NCBI RefSeq assembly: GCF_900090235.1
Contig: NZ_LT607750.1
Location: 2,182,501 to 2,246,500 of the forward strand
Length of the DNA stretch: 64,000 nucleotides
DNA from: Micromonospora echinaurantiaca
GTDB taxonomy: Bacteria > Actinomycetota > Actinomycetes > Mycobacteriales > Micromonosporaceae
Reading direction: 5' to 3'
Shown one piece after another: positions 3,688 to 10,885 of this stretch. The first letter of the stretch is position 1, and every line of letters starts with the position of its first letter. Position numbers and translations under genes: made by a program. The notes beneath the pieces are model-generated. The model had not been told where the DNA came from. It saw only the letters and a list, made by a program, of their open reading frames with translations, and made no database searches.

Positions 3688-3859
3688 CCTCGGCGTCGAC
3701 GGTCGCCTCGACCGCACCGTCGGGGCTGCGGGCCGTCGCGGTGAGCGCCGCCAGTTCGCGGGTCAGCGCGGTGGTCCGCGTCGCCCGCTCGGCGATCGTG
3801 GCCTCCCAGTCGTCGACCCGTCGTCGTGCGGCGTCCAGCGCCGCCTCGTCCGTCCACAC
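3688..3859 (-). pseudogene. Truncated YbaB/EbfC-like nucleoid protein (N-terminal half only)
   Basis: The frame starting at 3859 reads MWTDEAALDAARRRVDDWEA, continues through a coiled helix and reaches TATARSPDGAVEATVDA. This is the N-terminal helix and first strand of actinobacterial YbaB/EbfC proteins, which normally continue for another 40-60 residues. Here family similarity stops at about 3690, exactly where the DUF4926 start codon lies. The frame then runs on to 3566 as low-complexity Arg-rich sequence out of frame with DUF4926. A recombination event probably replaced the second half. It might still yield a 97-residue protein, but that product would lack the dimerisation core. Confidence 0.6.
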
Positions 3860-4014
3860 CTCGGAGCCTCCCCGTCCCGCCGGTGCGAGCCCCGGTCACG
3901 TTACCAACCGAAGTCGATCCGTTCCGCCCCGTAACGGCCGGCAGGCGTGTCCGGCGATTCAACGGGTATGCGGCGTCCCGGGCGGCGGCCGTGGCCGCCC
4001 GGATCGGGGGTGCC

Positions 4015-4875
4015 GTGGAGGCCACGGTGATCGGCGTGGTGATCGTCCTCGCGCTGCTGGCGCTGCTCGGGGCGCTCAGCGTCCGGCTGGTGCAGCAGTA
4101 CCAGCGCGGCATCGTCTTCCGGTTCGGCCGGGTGCTCGACCGGGTCCGACAGCCGGGCCTGCAGTTCATCGTTCCGGTCGCCGACCGGATGGTGCGGGTG
4201 AGCATGCAGACCGTGGTGATGGGCGTGCCGCCGCAGGGCGCCATCACCCGGGACAACGTGACGCTGACCGTCGACGCGGTCGTCTACTACCGGGTGGTCG
4301 ATCCGGTGAAAGCGCTGGTCAACGTGCACGACTATCCCTCGGCGGTGCTTCAGGTGGCGCAGACCGCGCTCCGCTCGGTGATCGGCAAGGCCGACCTGGA
4401 CACCGTGCTCGGCGACCGGGAACGGGTCAACGCCGAGCTGAAGGCGGTCATCGACGCGCCGACCGAGAAGCCCTGGGGCCTGCTGATCGAGCGGGTCGAG
4501 GTCAAGGACGTGGCGCTGCCCGAGGGGATGAAGCGGTCGATGTCCCGCCAGGCCGAGGCGGAGCGGGAACGCCGGGCCCGGGTGATCGCCGCCGACGGCG
4601 AGTACCAGGCGTCCCGCCGGCTCGCCGACGCCTCCCGGGCGATGGCGGCCACGCCGGGGGCGTACCAGCTGCGCCTGCTGCAGACCGTGGTGGACGTGGC
4701 GGCGGAGAAGAACAGCACCCTGGTGATGCCGTTCCCGGTGGAGCTGCTGCGCTTCTTCGACCAGTTCAGCCGTACCACGCCGGAGCAGAGTGCGGCGGGC
4801 GGGCCGGATCTCGGGCCGGTCACCGGGACGGTCGCGGCGGCCGCCGAGCCCGACGGCGGCTCCCCGGCGACCTGA
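4015..4875 (+). CDS. Slipin / SPFH (Band 7) membrane protein
   Basis: This 286-residue protein has one N-terminal membrane helix (VIGVVIVLALLALLGALSV) followed by the SPFH domain: QQYQRGIVFRFGRVLD, GLQFIVPVADRM, the strand VTLTVDAVVYYRVVDP and the helix ALRSVIGKADLDTVL. It ends with a coiled region RQAEAERERRARVIAADGE and a tail rich in Ala/Gly. Slipins are stomatin-like scaffolds that form oligomers on the cytoplasmic membrane face. The partner NfeD protease gene often found beside them is absent. I chose the GTG at 4015 because it has GGGGG upstream and places the helix at the N-terminus; the same frame is open further left without family similarity. Confidence 0.85.
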   Translation: MEATVIGVVIVLALLALLGALSVRLVQQYQRGIVFRFGRVLDRVRQPGLQFIVPVADRMVRVSMQTVVMGVPPQGAITRDNVTLTVDAVVYYRVVDPVKALVNVHDYPSAVLQVAQTALRSVIGKADLDTVLGDRERVNAELKAVIDAPTEKPWGLLIERVEVKDVALPEGMKRSMSRQAEAERERRARVIAADGEYQASRRLADASRAMAATPGAYQLRLLQTVVDVAAEKNSTLVMPFPVELLRFFDQFSRTTPEQSAAGGPDLGPVTGTVAAAAEPDGGSPAT

Positions 4876-4979: not shown

Positions 4980-6590
4980 TCAGGCCGGGACCGCCGACTC
5001 CGCCGCCGGCTCGGCCGGCTGTTCTGGTACGGCGGGCGGCGCCGGGCGGGGCAGCGTGAACCGGAACCGCGCCCCGCCGGTGTACGTCTCGTCCAGGCTC
5101 AGGGTGCCGCCGTGGTACTCCACGATCTTCTTGCAGACCGCCAAGCCGATGCCGGTGCCCGGGTACGAGCCGCGGGGGTGCAGCCGCTGGAAGATCACGA
5201 AGATCTTCTCGGCGTACCGGGGGTCGATGCCGATGCCGTTGTCCTCGACCGTGAACGACCAGCCGTCCGGCGTGTCGGCCACCGTCACCCGGACCCGGGG
5301 GTCCCGCTCCGGGCTGCGGAACTTGACCGCGTTGCCGAGCAGGTTCTGCCACAGCATGGTCAGCAGCGTCGGGTCGCCCTGCACGGTCGGCAGCGGATCG
5401 CGGGTGATCTCCGCGCCGGCCTCCTCGACCGCGCCGGACAGGTTCGCCGCCGCCTGTTCGAAGACCTCGGCCAGATCCACCTCGCGCAGGTCGCTGTAGA
5501 CCCGGCCGATCCGGGAGAACGCCAGCAGGTCGTTGATCAGCTCCTGCATCCGGGTCGCCCCGTCGACCGCGAAGCCGATGTACTGCCGGGCCCGGTCGTC
5601 GAGCTGGTCGCCGTAGCGGCGCTGCAGCATCTGGCAGAACGAGGCCACCTTGCGCAGCGGCTCCTGCAGGTCGTGCGACGCGACGTAGGCGAACTGCTCC
5701 AGGTCCTCGTTCGACCGGCGCAGCTCGGCGGCCTGCTGTTCGAGGGCGTCCCGGTCGTGCTGGCCGCGCTCCAGCGCGTCCACCATCCGCTGCCGCATCG
5801 TCTCCACGTCGTCGGCGAGCCGGGCGATGTCGGCCGGCCCCTGCGGGCGCAGCCGGTGGCGGAAGTTCCCGCCGGCCACCTGCCGCACCGACTCGCCGAG
5901 CCGCTCCAGTGGGCGGAGCACCGTCAGCCGTACCAGCACGGAGCTGACCACGCTGGTCAGCAGCAGCGCGGCGAGGATCGCCACGAAGGTGAGGTCCCGC
6001 AGCCCACGGGCCCGGTCGAGGTCCGCCCGGCTGGCGTCCCGGATCTGGTCCAGCCGCGCCACCAGCGCGCTGAACTCCGCCCGGAGCGCCTCGAAGGTGT
6101 CCAGGCCGCGGGTCGCCACCGCCGCCAGCTCCGCCGGGTCGGTGCCGGCCTGCCGGCCCCGGATCAGCGGCTCGGCGACGTCGTTGTGCCACCGGCCGGC
6201 GAGCGCCTCGGCGTGTTCCAGGTCGCGCAGCGCCGCCGGCTCGTCGGCCAGCAGGTCGCGCAGCCGGGCCATCGTGACCGGTTCGGCTTCGAGGTTCTGC
6301 CGGTACGTGGCGAGGTATCGGTCCTCGCCGCTGAGGGCGTACGCGAACACGGCCGCACGCTGGCTCACCAGCTCGCTGTCGAGCTCCCCGACGGCCGTAC
6401 GGGCCGGGGCGATCCGGTCGGCCAACCGGTCGGACACGGCCGCGGTGTGCGTGAGGGCGGCGGCGCCCAGGCCACCACCGAGCACGACGAGGGCGGCCAT
6501 GGTCAGCAACATGACACTGAGCCACCACCGGGTCGTCCTCCGCCGGCTGTCCGTCGCCGGAACCGTTCCGCTGTCGCTCACGGCCTGCAC
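4980..6590 (-). CDS. Sensor histidine kinase with CHASE3-like sensor and HAMP
   Basis: This 536-residue kinase has a first membrane helix at about 22-46 and an extracytoplasmic helical sensor at about 50-195 typical of CHASE3. A second helix at about 200-222 is followed by a HAMP segment (LRPLERLGESVRQVAGGNF) and a coiled coil. The HisKA motif YVASHDLQEPLRK has its phospho-accepting His at about 306. The ATPase domain shows NLLGNAVKF (N box), VEDNGIGIDP (G1) and PGTGIGLAVCKKI (G2). No response regulator gene is adjacent, so it is an orphan here. This architecture is common in bacteriophytochrome-like light and oxygen kinases, but no chromophore domain is present. The start ATG is the furthest upstream with a plausible site. 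Confidence 0.88.
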   Translation of the reverse strand: MQAVSDSGTVPATDSRRRTTRWWLSVMLLTMAALVVLGGGLGAAALTHTAAVSDRLADRIAPARTAVGELDSELVSQRAAVFAYALSGEDRYLATYRQNLEAEPVTMARLRDLLADEPAALRDLEHAEALAGRWHNDVAEPLIRGRQAGTDPAELAAVATRGLDTFEALRAEFSALVARLDQIRDASRADLDRARGLRDLTFVAILAALLLTSVVSSVLVRLTVLRPLERLGESVRQVAGGNFRHRLRPQGPADIARLADDVETMRQRMVDALERGQHDRDALEQQAAELRRSNEDLEQFAYVASHDLQEPLRKVASFCQMLQRRYGDQLDDRARQYIGFAVDGATRMQELINDLLAFSRIGRVYSDLREVDLAEVFEQAAANLSGAVEEAGAEITRDPLPTVQGDPTLLTMLWQNLLGNAVKFRSPERDPRVRVTVADTPDGWSFTVEDNGIGIDPRYAEKIFVIFQRLHPRGSYPGTGIGLAVCKKIVEYHGGTLSLDETYTGGARFRFTLPRPAPPAVPEQPAEPAAESAVPA

Positions 6591-6893: not shown

Positions 6894-8522
6894 GTGACCG
6901 GCTGGCAGGTGTCCGGCTACACGCCGGTGCGGCAGCTCGGCGCGGGCGCGTCGGGCCGGGTGGACCTGGCCGTGCACGACGCGACCGGCACCCCGGTGGC
7001 GATCAAGTACCTCACCGGTGGCGTCGGCGACGACCCGTCGTTCCGGACCGCCTTCCGCGACGAGGCCCGGCTGCTCGGCGAGATCGACGACCCGCACGTC
7101 TCGCGCCTCTACGAGTACGTCGAGTCGCCCGACGGCGCGGCGATCGTGATGGAGCTGGTCAACGGCGTGTCGCTGCGGCAGATGCTGCGCGCGCACGGCC
7201 CGACCGCGCCGGAGTCGGCGCTCTGCGTCCTCAAGGGATCGCTGGCCGGGCTCGGGGCGGCGCACGCCCGCGGCGTGGTGCACCGCGACTACAAGCCGGA
7301 GAACGTGTTGGTGACCGCCGAGGGCGCCAGCAAGCTGGCCGACTTCGGCATCGCCATGCCGGTCGGCGCCGGTTCGGGCGTCTCGGTCACCGGCACGCCC
7401 CGCTACATGGCCCCGGAGCAGTGGACCGGCGCCCCGGCCAGCCCGGCCTGCGACATCTACGCGGCGACCGCGACCTTCTACGAATGCCTCACCGGGCGTC
7501 CACCGTACGACGGGCGGGACCTGCTCACCCTGCGCCAGCAGCACGCCACCGCGCCGATCCCCACCGACCCGGCCCCCGCGCCGGTGCACGACCTGCTGCG
7601 GCACGGCATGGCCAAGCAGCCGGCCGACCGGCCGCAACCCGCCCAGGCGTTCCTCGTCCTGCTCGAACAGGTGGCGGGCCGGGCGTACGGCGCGGACTGG
7701 GAGGAGCGCGGGCTGCGGGAACTGGCCCGCCGGGCGGCGTTGCTGGCCGCCCTCTTCCCCTTCCCGGCCGGCACCGGCGGTGCCACCAGCCTGGCCAGCA
7801 CCGCCCTCGGCGCGAGCACCGGACGGTGGACGTGGCTGCGCCCCGGCCGGGCCCGTAGGTCGCTGGTCGGCGCCGGGGTGGTGGCCACCCTGCTGGTCGG
7901 TGGTGCCGGGCTCAGCTACGCCGCCCGGGACGAGCCGCTGCCCGCGGCCGGGGCGGGCACCTCGGGCTCGACCACCGTGACCGGCGGCGCGGCGGCGACG
8001 CCCGGCGCCGGGTCGCCCACCCCGACGCCGAGCGCCACCCCCACCCCGTCGGGCGAGCCGGGCACGACGACGGCGGCGCCGGAGCCGCCCACCCCCGGTG
8101 CGACGACCCGCCCGCCCACCCGGAGCCCGAGCCCGAGCGCGTCGACCGGCACCAGCCCCCCGCCGCCGCCGGACACCGTCGCCCCGACGGTGGGGAAGGT
8201 GGCGGCCAACCCGACCAGGCTCGATCCGCGGGGCTGCCCGTACGGGCCGACGTCGAGCACCATCGCCGCGGCCGTCGCCGACGACCGTACGCCGGTCGGC
8301 TCGCTGCGGGTGCGGCTCCGCTACACCCTCGACGGCCGGTCCACCGACGTCGCCATGTCCCCGAGCCGCGACGGGTCGTTCCGGGGCGCCTTCGGCGACC
8401 TGCCGCGGCCCGCGAACGCCATCCGGATCCCGGTCCGCGTGCTCGCCACCGACCAGGCCGGCAACACCGCCGAGGGCGGACCGGTGTACGTCACCCTCGA
8501 CTCGAACTGCACCCCGGGCTGA
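6894..8522 (+). CDS. PknB-type serine/threonine protein kinase, membrane-anchored
   Basis: This is a 542-residue transmembrane kinase. The N-terminal kinase domain (about 9-265) has the Gly-rich loop GAGASG, VAIK with Lys38, the catalytic HRDYKPEN (Asp132), DFG (150-152) and APE (173-175). The activation loop VSVTGTPRYMAPE holds candidate autophosphorylation Thr residues. HRDY replaces the common HRDL, a change seen in active actinobacterial kinases. A single membrane helix lies at about 322-344. Then come a Pro/Thr/Ser-rich extracellular stalk and a C-terminal Ig-like beta domain (about 440-540) with two cysteines, instead of PASTA repeats. The next two genes, on the same strand, encode membrane proteins with repeated Thr motifs and are plausible substrates. 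Confidence 0.93.
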   Translation: MTGWQVSGYTPVRQLGAGASGRVDLAVHDATGTPVAIKYLTGGVGDDPSFRTAFRDEARLLGEIDDPHVSRLYEYVESPDGAAIVMELVNGVSLRQMLRAHGPTAPESALCVLKGSLAGLGAAHARGVVHRDYKPENVLVTAEGASKLADFGIAMPVGAGSGVSVTGTPRYMAPEQWTGAPASPACDIYAATATFYECLTGRPPYDGRDLLTLRQQHATAPIPTDPAPAPVHDLLRHGMAKQPADRPQPAQAFLVLLEQVAGRAYGADWEERGLRELARRAALLAALFPFPAGTGGATSLASTALGASTGRWTWLRPGRARRSLVGAGVVATLLVGGAGLSYAARDEPLPAAGAGTSGSTTVTGGAAATPGAGSPTPTPSATPTPSGEPGTTTAAPEPPTPGATTRPPTRSPSPSASTGTSPPPPPDTVAPTVGKVAANPTRLDPRGCPYGPTSSTIAAAVADDRTPVGSLRVRLRYTLDGRSTDVAMSPSRDGSFRGAFGDLPRPANAIRIPVRVLATDQAGNTAEGGPVYVTLDSNCTPG

Positions 8523-8568
8523 CCGCTCCCGGACGCCAAGCCGACGACGACGAGACAGGACGGCCGCC

Positions 8569-9861
8569 GTGACCCAGCCGAACGACCCGACCGAGGCGCT
8601 GCCCACCCGCGCGTGGTACGACGACCCGCCCGACCCGCCCGACCCGCCCGACCCGCCCGGCCAGCCCGACCCGCCCGGCCCGCTCGGCCGGCCCGCCGGC
8701 CCGGCGCCGCCGGCCGAGCCCACCGTGCGGCTCGCCCCCGAGTCCGCCGAGCGTCCGGAGCCGGTCGAGCCGACCGTCCACCTGGCCCCGCCGCCGAGGC
8801 AGCCGGGCGGAGCGGAGCCGACGGTGCACCTGGGCGCGGGGGAGCCGACGGTGCACCTGGGCGCGGGGGAGCCGACGGTGCACCTGGGCGCGGGGGAGCC
8901 GACCGTGCACCCCGGCGCGGGGGAGACGGTGCACCTGGGCGCGAGGGAGTCGACGGTGCACCTGGGTGCGGGGGAGGCGACGGTTCAGTTGGGCGGTGGC
9001 GAGCCGACGGTCCGCTGGGGTGCCGCCGGGTCGACCGGTCATCGGGCGGCTGGATGGTCTCCGCCGTCGGCGGGGGAGTCGACAGTCGACATGGGCGCGG
9101 CCGGTCGCCCCGGTCCGGCGGCCTGGCCGGCCGCGCCGGATTCGACCCATCCGACCCATCCGACCGGTGGGGCCACCACCGCCGCCGGGACCGGCACGCT
9201 CTACGGCCCGCGTACCGCCGCAGCCACGCCCGGCAGCACCGGTGTGACCGGCGCGACCACGCCGGGCGGAACCGGCGCGACCACGCCGGGCAGGGCCGGC
9301 GCGGCCACGCCCGGCAGGGCCGGCGCGGCCGCCGGGGCACCCGGTGCGGCTGCCGTACCGGCCGGCGGCGAGGTGCGGTTCGGACCCGGCGTCCCGGCCA
9401 CGCCGCCGGCCGCACCGGCCTGGCCGGCGCCGCCGCCGCCGCGACGCCCACGGTCGGTCTGGCGGACGCTCACCTCGGTGCTGTCCACTCTGCTCACCCT
9501 GGCGCTGCTCGCCGCCGTCGGAATCTACCTGTGGCAGCGAATCAGCCCGCTGGAGATCACCGGGGTGACCGTGGCGGTGCCCGAGCCGGCCGGTGACCGG
9601 TGTGACGTCACCGTCGACGTGGTCGCGACGGTACGCACCAACGGCCGGGGCGGGGTCGTCGAGTACCAGTGGCTGCGCTCCGGCAGCCCGCCGAGCAACG
9701 TGCTGACCGAGCGGGTCGGCCGGGGGCAGCGCACCGTCGACCTCACGCTGGAGTGGACGTTCACCGGCGTCGGCAGCACCCGGCAGACGGCCACCGTCAA
9801 CATCACCTCCCCGGCGCCGATGCAGGCGCAGACCGAGGTCGCGTACGACTGCCGACCGTGA
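8569..9861 (+). CDS. Single-pass membrane protein with tandem E-x-T-V-x-L repeats
   Basis: This 430-residue protein starts at the GTG at 8569, 46 bases after the kinase stop. The cytoplasmic N-terminal half is disordered: a DPP-rich stretch (18-37), then eleven copies of E-x-T-V or E-T-V between residues 50 and 175 (Thr at 52, 69, 85, 94, 103, 112, 120, 129, 138, 147, 172). Seven copies lie on a pitch of 8-9 residues. Ala/Thr/Gly repeats follow, then one membrane helix (TLLTLALLAAVGIYLWQRIS) and an extracellular Ig-like domain of about 110 residues with two Cys. Most motifs have Leu at +3 from Thr, the form that FHA domains bind once phosphorylated. I recognise no named family. A scaffold phosphorylated by the adjacent kinase is my inference. 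Confidence 0.75.
   Translation: MTQPNDPTEALPTRAWYDDPPDPPDPPDPPGQPDPPGPLGRPAGPAPPAEPTVRLAPESAERPEPVEPTVHLAPPPRQPGGAEPTVHLGAGEPTVHLGAGEPTVHLGAGEPTVHPGAGETVHLGARESTVHLGAGEATVQLGGGEPTVRWGAAGSTGHRAAGWSPPSAGESTVDMGAAGRPGPAAWPAAPDSTHPTHPTGGATTAAGTGTLYGPRTAAATPGSTGVTGATTPGGTGATTPGRAGAATPGRAGAAAGAPGAAAVPAGGEVRFGPGVPATPPAAPAWPAPPPPRRPRSVWRTLTSVLSTLLTLALLAAVGIYLWQRISPLEITGVTVAVPEPAGDRCDVTVDVVATVRTNGRGGVVEYQWLRSGSPPSNVLTERVGRGQRTVDLTLEWTFTGVGSTRQTATVNITSPAPMQAQTEVAYDCRP
8815..9024 (+). repeat. Tandem 27-bp coding repeats (unit E-P-T-V-H-L-G-A-G)
   Basis: Three adjacent units are nearly identical at DNA level (from about 8815 to 8895). Diverging copies follow to about 9020, including one that lost a codon (ETVHL) and later ones with Ser or Ala after Glu. 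The nucleotide identity of the first units points to recent tandem duplication, while the T-V core is kept in every copy. Confidence 0.85.
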
Positions 9862-9946
9862 CCTCCCGGCGCCGCCGCGCCCGGGTTTCCGGTGGATCCC
9901 CACGGGGTAGGTCGGCCGGGACGAACCGGTGCTGTGGAGGATTTCG

Positions 9947-10885
9947 ATGCGAGACAACTTCGGTGACGCCGTGGGGGACGCCCTCCGTTCGGTGCTGCTC
10001 TTCCTGCCCAAGGCCGTCGGCTTCGTGGCCATCCTGGTGGTCGGCTGGCTGGCGGCGAAGGCGCTGCGCAAGCTCGTGGACAAGGTGCTGGAGCGGGTCG
10101 GCTTCGACCGGGCCGTCGAGCGCGGCGGCATCCGCCGGGCACTGGCCCGATCGCGGTACGACGCCAGCGACATCGTCGCCAAGCTCGTCTACTACGGCGT
10201 GCTGCTGGTGACCCTGCAACTCGCGTTCGGCATCTGGGGGCCGAACCCCATCTCGGACCTGATCGCCGGGGTCATCGCCTGGCTGCCGAGGGCCTTCGTC
10301 GCGATCGTCATCGTGGTGGTGGCCGCGGCGATCGCCAACGCGGTCAAGGACATCATCAGCGGCGCCCTCGGCGGGCTGTCGTACGGCCGGATCCTGGCCA
10401 CCATCGCGTCGGTGTTCATCCTCGGCCTGGGGATCATCGCCGCGCTCAACCAGATCGGCGTGGCCACCGCGGTGACCACCCCGGTGCTGATCGCCGTGCT
10501 GGCCACGGTCGGCGGCATCCTGATCGTCGGCGTCGGCGGCGGGCTGGTCCGGCCGATGCAGAGCCGTTGGGAGTCCTGGCTGACCCGGGCCGAGCAGGAG
10601 TCCCAGGCGATCGCCACGCACGCCCGGGCGTACCAGGCCGGCCGCCGGGACACCGCGGCCCGGCTGGCCGAGTCGGCGCCCGCCGCGGGTCCGGCCGGCG
10701 GCGACCCGGAGGCCACCCAGGTGGTGCCCGCCACGCCCGGCCACCCCGGAGCCGTCGCTCCGGCGCAGACCGACCCGGACGCCACCCAGCCCACGCCGCG
10801 GGGCGCCACCATCCCAGCGCAGCCGACCGGTGACGACGCCGAGGCCACCATGGTCATTCCGCCGGTGGACCGCGACCGGCGCTGA
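9947..10885 (+). CDS. Conserved-TM-helix (mechanosensitive channel-like) membrane protein
   Basis: This 312-residue protein has about five hydrophobic helices in its first 210 residues: LLFLPKAVGFVAILVVGWLA, a helix at about 82-100, LPRAFVAIVIVVVAAAIANA, a helix at about 145-165 and a Gly-rich one at about 180-205. The pattern matches the conserved TM helix family related to MscS-like channels but lacks the MscS beta domain. The cytoplasmic tail (about 210-312) carries three spaced motifs, DPEATQVVP, DPDATQPTP and DAEATMVIP, with Thr at about 257, 280 and 301. These resemble phospho-Thr/FHA sites and the Thr repeats of the preceding gene. The ATG at 9947 follows GGAGG; a longer frame from 9929 lacks a site. 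Confidence 0.8.
   Translation: MRDNFGDAVGDALRSVLLFLPKAVGFVAILVVGWLAAKALRKLVDKVLERVGFDRAVERGGIRRALARSRYDASDIVAKLVYYGVLLVTLQLAFGIWGPNPISDLIAGVIAWLPRAFVAIVIVVVAAAIANAVKDIISGALGGLSYGRILATIASVFILGLGIIAALNQIGVATAVTTPVLIAVLATVGGILIVGVGGGLVRPMQSRWESWLTRAEQESQAIATHARAYQAGRRDTAARLAESAPAAGPAGGDPEATQVVPATPGHPGAVAPAQTDPDATQPTPRGATIPAQPTGDDAEATMVIPPVDRDRR

Follow-up and report, generated by a model that had tools for sequence, protein, structure and literature searches.

A receptor kinase and its threonine-array membrane partner in Micromonospora: a putative multivalent FHA dock related to pseudokinase receptors

Layout of the locus

The locus described here lies in a 64,000-nucleotide stretch of the Micromonospora echinaurantiaca genome (contig NZ_LT607750.1 of assembly GCF_900090235.1; hereafter the window, to whose positions coordinates refer unless stated otherwise). 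It comprises three co-directional genes, separated by gaps of 46 and 85 bases, which encode a receptor Ser/Thr kinase (K), a single-pass membrane protein with an array of Thr sites in its N-terminal half (P2), and a further membrane protein with Thr sites in its tail (P3; Table 1). An earlier note on this DNA had reported eleven E(x)TV sites in a single-pass protein following a PknB-type kinase, three D-x-(E/D)-A-T sites in the tail of the third protein, and a 27-bp tandem repeat, and all of these are present. Its description of P3 as MscS-related holds for the conserved transmembrane (TM) helix (two MS_channel_1st_1 stretches, 6.2e-20), but an MscS pore or vestibule domain was not found, with no other Pfam match at E 0.1 and an NCBIfam msc score of 45 bits against a cut-off of 100. 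By reading, ATG 9947 is the best start of P3.

K is a PknB-type kinase (Pfam Pkinase 4.7e-43) in which the kinase-domain motif set of a PknB-type receptor Ser/Thr kinase is complete: the Gly loop, the VAIK-type Lys, HRD, DFG and APE are kept in all 31 K sequences longer than 400 amino acids (aa), the window copy included. The PASTA outer repeats of the Stk1/PknB equivalog were not found in K (PknB_PASTA_kin 182 bits against a cut-off of 450, kinase part only). The outer domain gives weak Ig-like matches in orthologues (Invasin_D3 in 15 and Big_1 in 4 of 36) and neither of the two in the window copy, and a profile search of the outer domains of K and P2 against the PDB returned nothing convincing. 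The stretch GGATSLAST in the cytoplasmic juxtamembrane part of K (7776-7802, aa 295-303) is a possible autophosphorylation site; a loose pattern for it is present in 21 of the 31 K sequences.

P2 (430 aa, GTG start) has no match in Pfam or NCBIfam at E 0.1. One TM helix is predicted (residues 301-319), and the half in front of it looks disordered. Because basic residues stand just before the helix and a Cys pair follows it, the Thr-bearing half is probably located inside the cell; the Cys pair of the outer domain (Cys345/Cys428) is invariant in 36 of 36 aligned sequences. The outer half matches the nearest of five named records, a Micromonospora, at 94%. A MurJ/MviN flippase region was not found in P2 (one predicted TM helix, no Pfam match).

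Table 1. Features of the K-P2-P3 locus (window positions; Cys and Thr numbers refer to the respective protein)
Feature	Position	Strand	Remarks
K, receptor Ser/Thr kinase	6894..8522	+	kinase domain aa 9-252, TM helix aa 323-341, Pro/Thr-rich outer stalk, two-Cys outer domain
K outer domain	8178..8519	+	two invariant Cys
P2, single-pass membrane protein	8569..9861	+	Thr array, probably cytoplasmic
P2 Thr array	8716..9093	+	eleven E(x)TV sites, Thr 52 to Thr 172, consensus [DE]-x-T-V-H-L
27-bp tandem repeat	8814..9011	+	7.4 copies; part of P2 array amplified recently
GGEVRFGPGVP box of P2	9364..9396	+	conserved, between array and TM helix
P2 TM helix (predicted)	9469..9525	+	aa 301-319, RRPRSVWR just before
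P2 outer domain	9541..9858	+	Cys345/Cys428
P3, MS_channel_1st_1 (conserved TM helix) membrane protein	9947..10885	+	core aa 1-225
P3 tail Thr sites	10703..10861	+	DPEATQVV, DPDATQPT, DAEATMVIP
Strong hairpin directly after P3	10886..10950	+	-55.2 kcal/mol, z -6.4; possible operon end

The threonine array of P2

The Thr residues of the eleven sites in the window P2 are at positions 52, 69, 85, 94, 103, 112, 120 (here E-T-V), 129, 138, 147 and 172. For comparison, 28 of the 31 other genomes with a P2 hit were fetched (G001, G010 and G014 are at contig ends or fragments), and the statistics on P2 N-termini use 31 of 34 rows, leaving out L059, which repeats L039, L045, which has a frame break, and L046, which is without the anchor box. 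All 31 N-termini contain the motif at least once (median 7, range 1-15); the repeats are thus not absent or degenerate in orthologues, the outcome that the earlier note had named as fatal to its proposal, though some cores decay.

The window N-terminus gives 9 motif hits compared with a mean of 0.24 and a maximum of 4 in 5000 shuffles, and the 31 N-termini together give 207 compared with a mean of 9.6 and a maximum of 23 in 500 shuffles, the counter being one that can score a Thr twice; counted by Thr, with any residue at +1, the numbers are 10 and 227, respectively. The residue in the variable position of [DE]x(any)VxL is Thr 119 times, Ser once, and no other residue. Around every Thr of the 31 N-termini (654 unique 11-mers), E is enriched 4.9x and D 2.7x at -2, V 4.1x at +1, H 5.5x at +2 and L 6.2x at +3, a flank pattern not seen in Ser windows of the same N-termini, and 227 of 735 Thr lie inside the motif versus 2 of 209 Ser. 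The Thr-rich outer stalk of K has only 4 of 547 Thr in the motif (31 K sequences), so that richness in Thr does not by itself produce the pattern seen in P2. Among 4488 open frames of at least 100 codons in 864 kb of the same genome (the window and 40 stretches of 20 kb), P2 alone has more than three such sites within 150 residues, and two other frames have three. Shuffles, genome background and the comparison with the K stalk lead us to reject the array as a chance product of composition.

Conservation was analysed in 13 sister pairs by residue class, with cells that are counted in both directions and are not independent: a Thr in the core is retained in 128 of 145 cells, and a Thr elsewhere in 281 of 398 (Fisher p 1.6e-5); the acidic class is retained in 127 of 147 cells of the core and in 179 of 243 elsewhere (Fisher p 3.3e-3), and the hydrophobic class in 131 of 146 at +3 of the core and in 198 of 301 elsewhere (Fisher p 2.4e-8). 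For the hydrophobic class at +1 the figure is 89 of 113 (p 0.01); at -1, +1 and +2, identity (0.61-0.62) does not exceed that of the spacer (0.65). Sites are mostly 9 residues apart, and spacings of 15, 17 and 6 are found repeatedly in other species. The constraint on the array, which is real, lies on its core and leaves the spacing and number of its sites free. Selection on copy number, as proposed earlier, receives support only in part: the presence of the array and its core are under constraint, but the number itself varies widely. The Thr arrays of this locus are conserved in kind and constrained at the positions relevant to Ser/Thr kinases and FHA binding, which supports this side of the earlier note's reading. 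In the nearest relative (L035) several P2 cores are damaged, as judged by eye.

Inheritance of K, P2 and P3

K adjoins P2 in all 33 P2 loci (one strain is counted twice, and two K hits are partial at contig ends), and both are missing in 17 of the 20 P2-less loci, which represent 20 of the 41 P2-less genomes of the genus; K and P2 therefore are a real unit. The remaining three P2-less loci (L071, L072 and L080, one clade) keep K directly before P3. On the P3 tree, of whose 46 inner branches 13 are starred and whose support is weak in places, presence of P2 changes 9 times (5 of these forced by starred branches) versus a mean of 15.7 after shuffling, so that P2 remains clustered, and presence of K changes 8 times. 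A test of the K/P2 pair on this tree gave a median p of 0.06, in a setting where it cannot reach 0.05.

P3 behaves differently. Its core is matched in 151 of 151 genomes of the genus, of which 133 have a best E below 1e-108, taken as the orthologue, and the other 18 have a match at paralogue level only. P3 with its array is present in all 20 P2-less genomes examined, with a mean of 5.85 sites as compared with 4.18 in P2-bearing genomes (p 0.08). K, P2 and P3 as a single phospho-switch, the reading proposed in the earlier note, is therefore rejected, since the distribution of P3 and its array is not tied to that of K and P2; of the three-gene order in relatives, K and P2 stay together in most cases, but P3 occurs independently. 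In L037 ('Actinoplanes italicus') and L046, K and P2 are present and P3 is not within the fetched stretch; in L048 and L051 P3 is some kilobases away. A joint rise in the number of P2 and P3 sites was not established (Spearman 0.31, p 0.12, 27 genomes).

The P3 array is nevertheless well defined. In 48 P3 tails the variable position of [DE]x(any)Q[PVAI][VTLI] is Thr 152 times, Ile once and Ser never, and 47 of these tails end in a site of the EATMVIP kind (the P3 statistics comprise 28 rows, omitting L059 and also L049, whose tail is apparently out of frame, and keeping L035, whose terminal site seems to have been lost through a shift of frame). In other genera of the family, 20 of 22 loci have at least one strict P3 site, often TQVIP-like; by eye, no such arrays are seen in P3 homologues across the class or in a second copy in the same genome. 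This second copy of the core (genome positions 4112447-4113112, L166) is 74% identical, and has S-D-E-T-Q-Q-F near its end, perhaps a single site. The P3 array persists without K and P2, and therefore another kinase must serve P3 in the 17 loci that lack K; P3 would thus be part of the general network of Thr phosphorylation, and nothing requires that K act on it.

Pseudokinase relatives of P2

P2 was found in 73 of 250 genomes of the family and in 12 of its 44 genera. We fetched 12 of the 23 genomes with distant homologues, one of which (L288) gave no P2 match on re-search; the 11 homologues from the others, which represent eight other genera, all have a kinase-like N-terminal domain. A profile of this domain matches solved kinases, best PknA (1.5e-11), and single proteins remain below the Pfam cut-off (best 2.7e-4; one of five without a match). 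We call it a pseudokinase because, by eye, the ATP lysine is not recognisable, HG[DA] stands for HRD, and E-[VCT]-G (E-V-A in L280) for DFG. In 8 of the 11 loci a K homologue is present in the same stretch, and 9 of the 11 proteins have at least one strict site between the kinase-like domain and the TM helix, for example SEATVQLIG or AESTTLLPG.

The pseudokinase was not found in P2 of Micromonospora or g127: profile A4, which is strong in its 11 source loci and partly matches L187, hits only K frames in the window, the 33 genus-level loci, L188, L189 and L289-L296, and not every K passed E 1e-3. The P2 proteins parsed from g127, eight in number (8 of 9 fetched loci), have 1-4 strict sites. L187 (genus g100) retains a piece of the pseudokinase domain, in a different frame from the rest of P2. 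P2 thus has the appearance of a former pseudokinase receptor in which the pseudokinase was lost and the docking site multiplied, a direction that we infer from the distribution of the two forms rather than from a rooted tree. One homologue, L280 (genus g138, reverse strand), combines the pseudokinase domain with an array of five Thr sites and is a possible intermediate form.

The sites as putative FHA ligands

FHA domains require phospho-Thr, and two motif classes, pTxx[I/L/V] and pTxx[E/D], are given in the available text of PMC8786283. In Mycobacterium tuberculosis, the sites lost upon depletion of PknA have acidic residues at -1 and -3 to -6, Pro at -1 and +2, Leu or Val at +3 and basic residues at +4, and for PknB no position reached significance, according to the part of that study at hand (PMC7164672). 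The P2 sites agree with the PknA list, as given there, in their acidic side, in Leu at +3 and in often having Pro at -1. They also follow the rule for FHA ligands (Thr, I/L/V at +3, Ser excluded), which makes them putative FHA-binding sites, and the P2 core combines the signature of a Ser/Thr-kinase site with that of an FHA ligand. Since these two signatures coincide, sequence alone cannot separate a mere substrate from a substrate that is also an FHA dock. GarA of the genus has an N-terminal D-V-T-S-T-L-N-L-G, near the T-V-H-L-G of P2, a likeness that is a lead only because the ETTS phosphosite aligns two residues earlier. The small fourth FHA protein (L003 1411-1956, genome positions 445544-446086) has a tail with ERTV and EPTV in this strain and R-P-T-L-P-L-P in most relatives shown.

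We lean, with limited confidence, towards the view that K and P2 form a two-protein receptor module in which the P2 array is a putative multivalent FHA dock. The outer domain of K would sense something outside the cell, and K would phosphorylate its membrane neighbour P2 at Thr residues of the disordered cytoplasmic tail. Each phosphorylated [D/E]-x-T-V-x-L site could then become a pT-x-x-L/V/I ligand for FHA domains, and the array might act as a membrane-tethered dock that, through avidity, gathers FHA proteins (FhaA, FhaB, a GarA-like one or the small fourth one). The ancestor would have been a receptor with a pseudokinase, followed by one or few sites beside the membrane; the pseudokinase would have gone in Micromonospora and g127, and the site would have multiplied in Micromonospora. 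P3 would carry a similar but separate array ([D/E]-x-T-Q-[P/V]-V), independent of K, and could join the same FHA-based clusters.

Several other explanations are conceivable. The one we take most seriously, although we consider it rather unlikely, is that the array is phosphorylated by K without being read by FHA domains, and that stepwise negative charge alters the conformation, membrane approach or clustering of P2 and thereby K, in the manner of a feedback receptor tail. Kinase recognition alone would account for the constraint at -2, Thr and +3, the variable spacing is as expected if no fixed multi-site geometry is needed, and no FHA gene accompanies P2. The near-exclusion of Ser (2 of 209) goes beyond what charge needs, though a Thr-preferring kinase could cause it, and in 9 of 11 relatives a site stands behind the kinase-like domain, the place of the FHA dock in the available description of MviN. 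Less probable still are unphosphorylated linear motifs that bind a folded partner, such as a kinase lobe, or each other, and so hold K and P2 together. This would agree with the hydrophobic residues at +1 and +3 and with the shared presence and absence of the two genes (K beside P2 in 33 of 33 loci, both missing in 17 of 20), but it leaves unexplained both the acidic residue at -2 and why position 0 admits Thr only, to the exclusion of Val and others (119 Thr, 1 Ser). A neutral minisatellite, born by slippage in a GC-rich Pro/Ala/Gly/Thr linker and without meaning, could produce the 27-bp tandem copies, a site number varying from 1 to 15 and the decay of some cores in the nearest relative. We nevertheless reject it as very improbable: Thr, the acid and +3 are selectively conserved, spacings of 9, 15, 17 or 6 recur in different species around the same core, the Thr-rich stalk of K is without the pattern, and orthologues without tandem cores, such as L066, keep many sites.

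A number of observations also weigh against a dock read by FHA domains. That P2 is phosphorylated and bound by FHA domains is something we infer, and at the level of sequence a charge switch without FHA fits as well. The acid of the P2 sites is at -2, a position absent from the PknA list as far as that is available, only 6 of the 11 window sites read TVHL, and two of them have P or W at +3. Three P2 sequences have two sites and one has a single site; T has changed to A 8 times among 145 aligned core cells of related species; and the core test was conditioned on the motif in one of two sequences, with cells that are not independent. No FHA match lies within the cluster, and a dedicated FHA reader gained together with P2 was rejected, as FHA counts are 90 in P2-bearing and 87 in P2-less genomes (20 each). 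As to the pseudokinase relatives, the kinase-fold match spans only about profile positions 14-149 of 217, three of the 11 have no K homologue in the 6-kb stretch, and two (L277, L279) have no strict site.

If the FHA dock is accepted, the module could be a bacterial counterpart of the animal receptor-plus-docking-protein plan, an extension that we offer tentatively and would not yet bet on: a sensor kinase would be paired with a dedicated multi-site phospho-Thr dock made from a stripped pseudokinase receptor, which keeps the anchor, the outer domain and the dock and in which the site was multiplied, site number would tune the gathering of FHA proteins, and the P3 array would be a second, kinase-independent client, served by the same FHA readers.

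Relation to known systems

The earlier note knew of no described system with this layout, yet it is less isolated than that: relatives with a pseudokinase exist in other genera, and the arrangement is similar to that of MviN and FhaA. PknB of M. tuberculosis phosphorylates the tail of the MviN pseudokinase, to which the FHA domain of FhaA is then recruited (PMC12599244). Like MviN in the accessible part of that report, the pseudokinase-type relatives of P2 have a pseudokinase, a linker with one or more Thr sites (in 9 of 11), a TM helix and an outer domain, and the Thr sites of P2, as in the MviN dock, stand before the membrane helix on the probably cytoplasmic side. Unlike MviN, P2 is without the flippase part, lacks the pseudokinase in Micromonospora and g127, and in Micromonospora usually has many sites. 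By analogy, the pseudokinase form of P2 could be described as the MviN plan minus the flippase, of which Micromonospora P2 would keep and multiply the putative dock; the likeness is one of plan, FHA binding by P2 is putative, and we do not claim homology to the MviN pseudokinase.

Two other systems, Rv1747 and StkP, as far as the available portions of the respective articles describe them, show that bacterial proteins can be clustered or recruited through phosphorylation of disordered stretches. Rv1747, an ABC transporter of M. tuberculosis that combines FHA domains with a disordered linker in the same protein, forms membrane clusters, and its condensates are promoted by PknF phosphorylation (review PMC9312465); P2, in contrast, has no FHA domain. 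The juxtamembrane stretch of StkP in Streptococcus pneumoniae contains seven phospho-Thr and helps to recruit division proteins (PMC12077195); in contrast to P2, these sites are in the kinase itself and not in a partner, and they do not fit the StkP substrate motif. Several phospho-Thr in the disordered N-terminal tail of PknG anchor the FHA protein GarA/OdhI (PMC8546545); this is, unlike P2, an autophosphorylated kinase tail with few sites, and a separate docking membrane protein does not appear in the portion of that article at hand. Similar to P2 in build, by description only, is Rv0312 / MSMEG_0692, a single-pass, Pro/Thr-rich protein of the FhaA interactome with an ATP-binding annotation (PMC11898655, as far as available).

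Among the papers listed by searches of open-licence literature, none describes P2-like arrays in its title or the opening of its abstract. To our knowledge, dedicated docking proteins for receptor Ser/Thr kinases are little known, and the K-P2 pair bears on how few FHA proteins serve many receptor kinases (here 4 FHA domains and 19 kinase-domain matches in the genome). The natural series, which runs from a single site following a pseudokinase to as many as 15 sites in its absence, opens the role of multivalency in bacterial phospho-Thr signalling to direct tests with purified components, and suggests a route from a pseudokinase receptor to a pure scaffold.

Surroundings of the locus

The hairpin that follows P3 is without a T run, and a terminator scan was negative there; a promoter scan of the locus found none. 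Just upstream of K, the window encodes an SPFH/band-7 protein (3826-4875, forward strand) and a CHASE3-HAMP histidine kinase (4980-6590, reverse strand).

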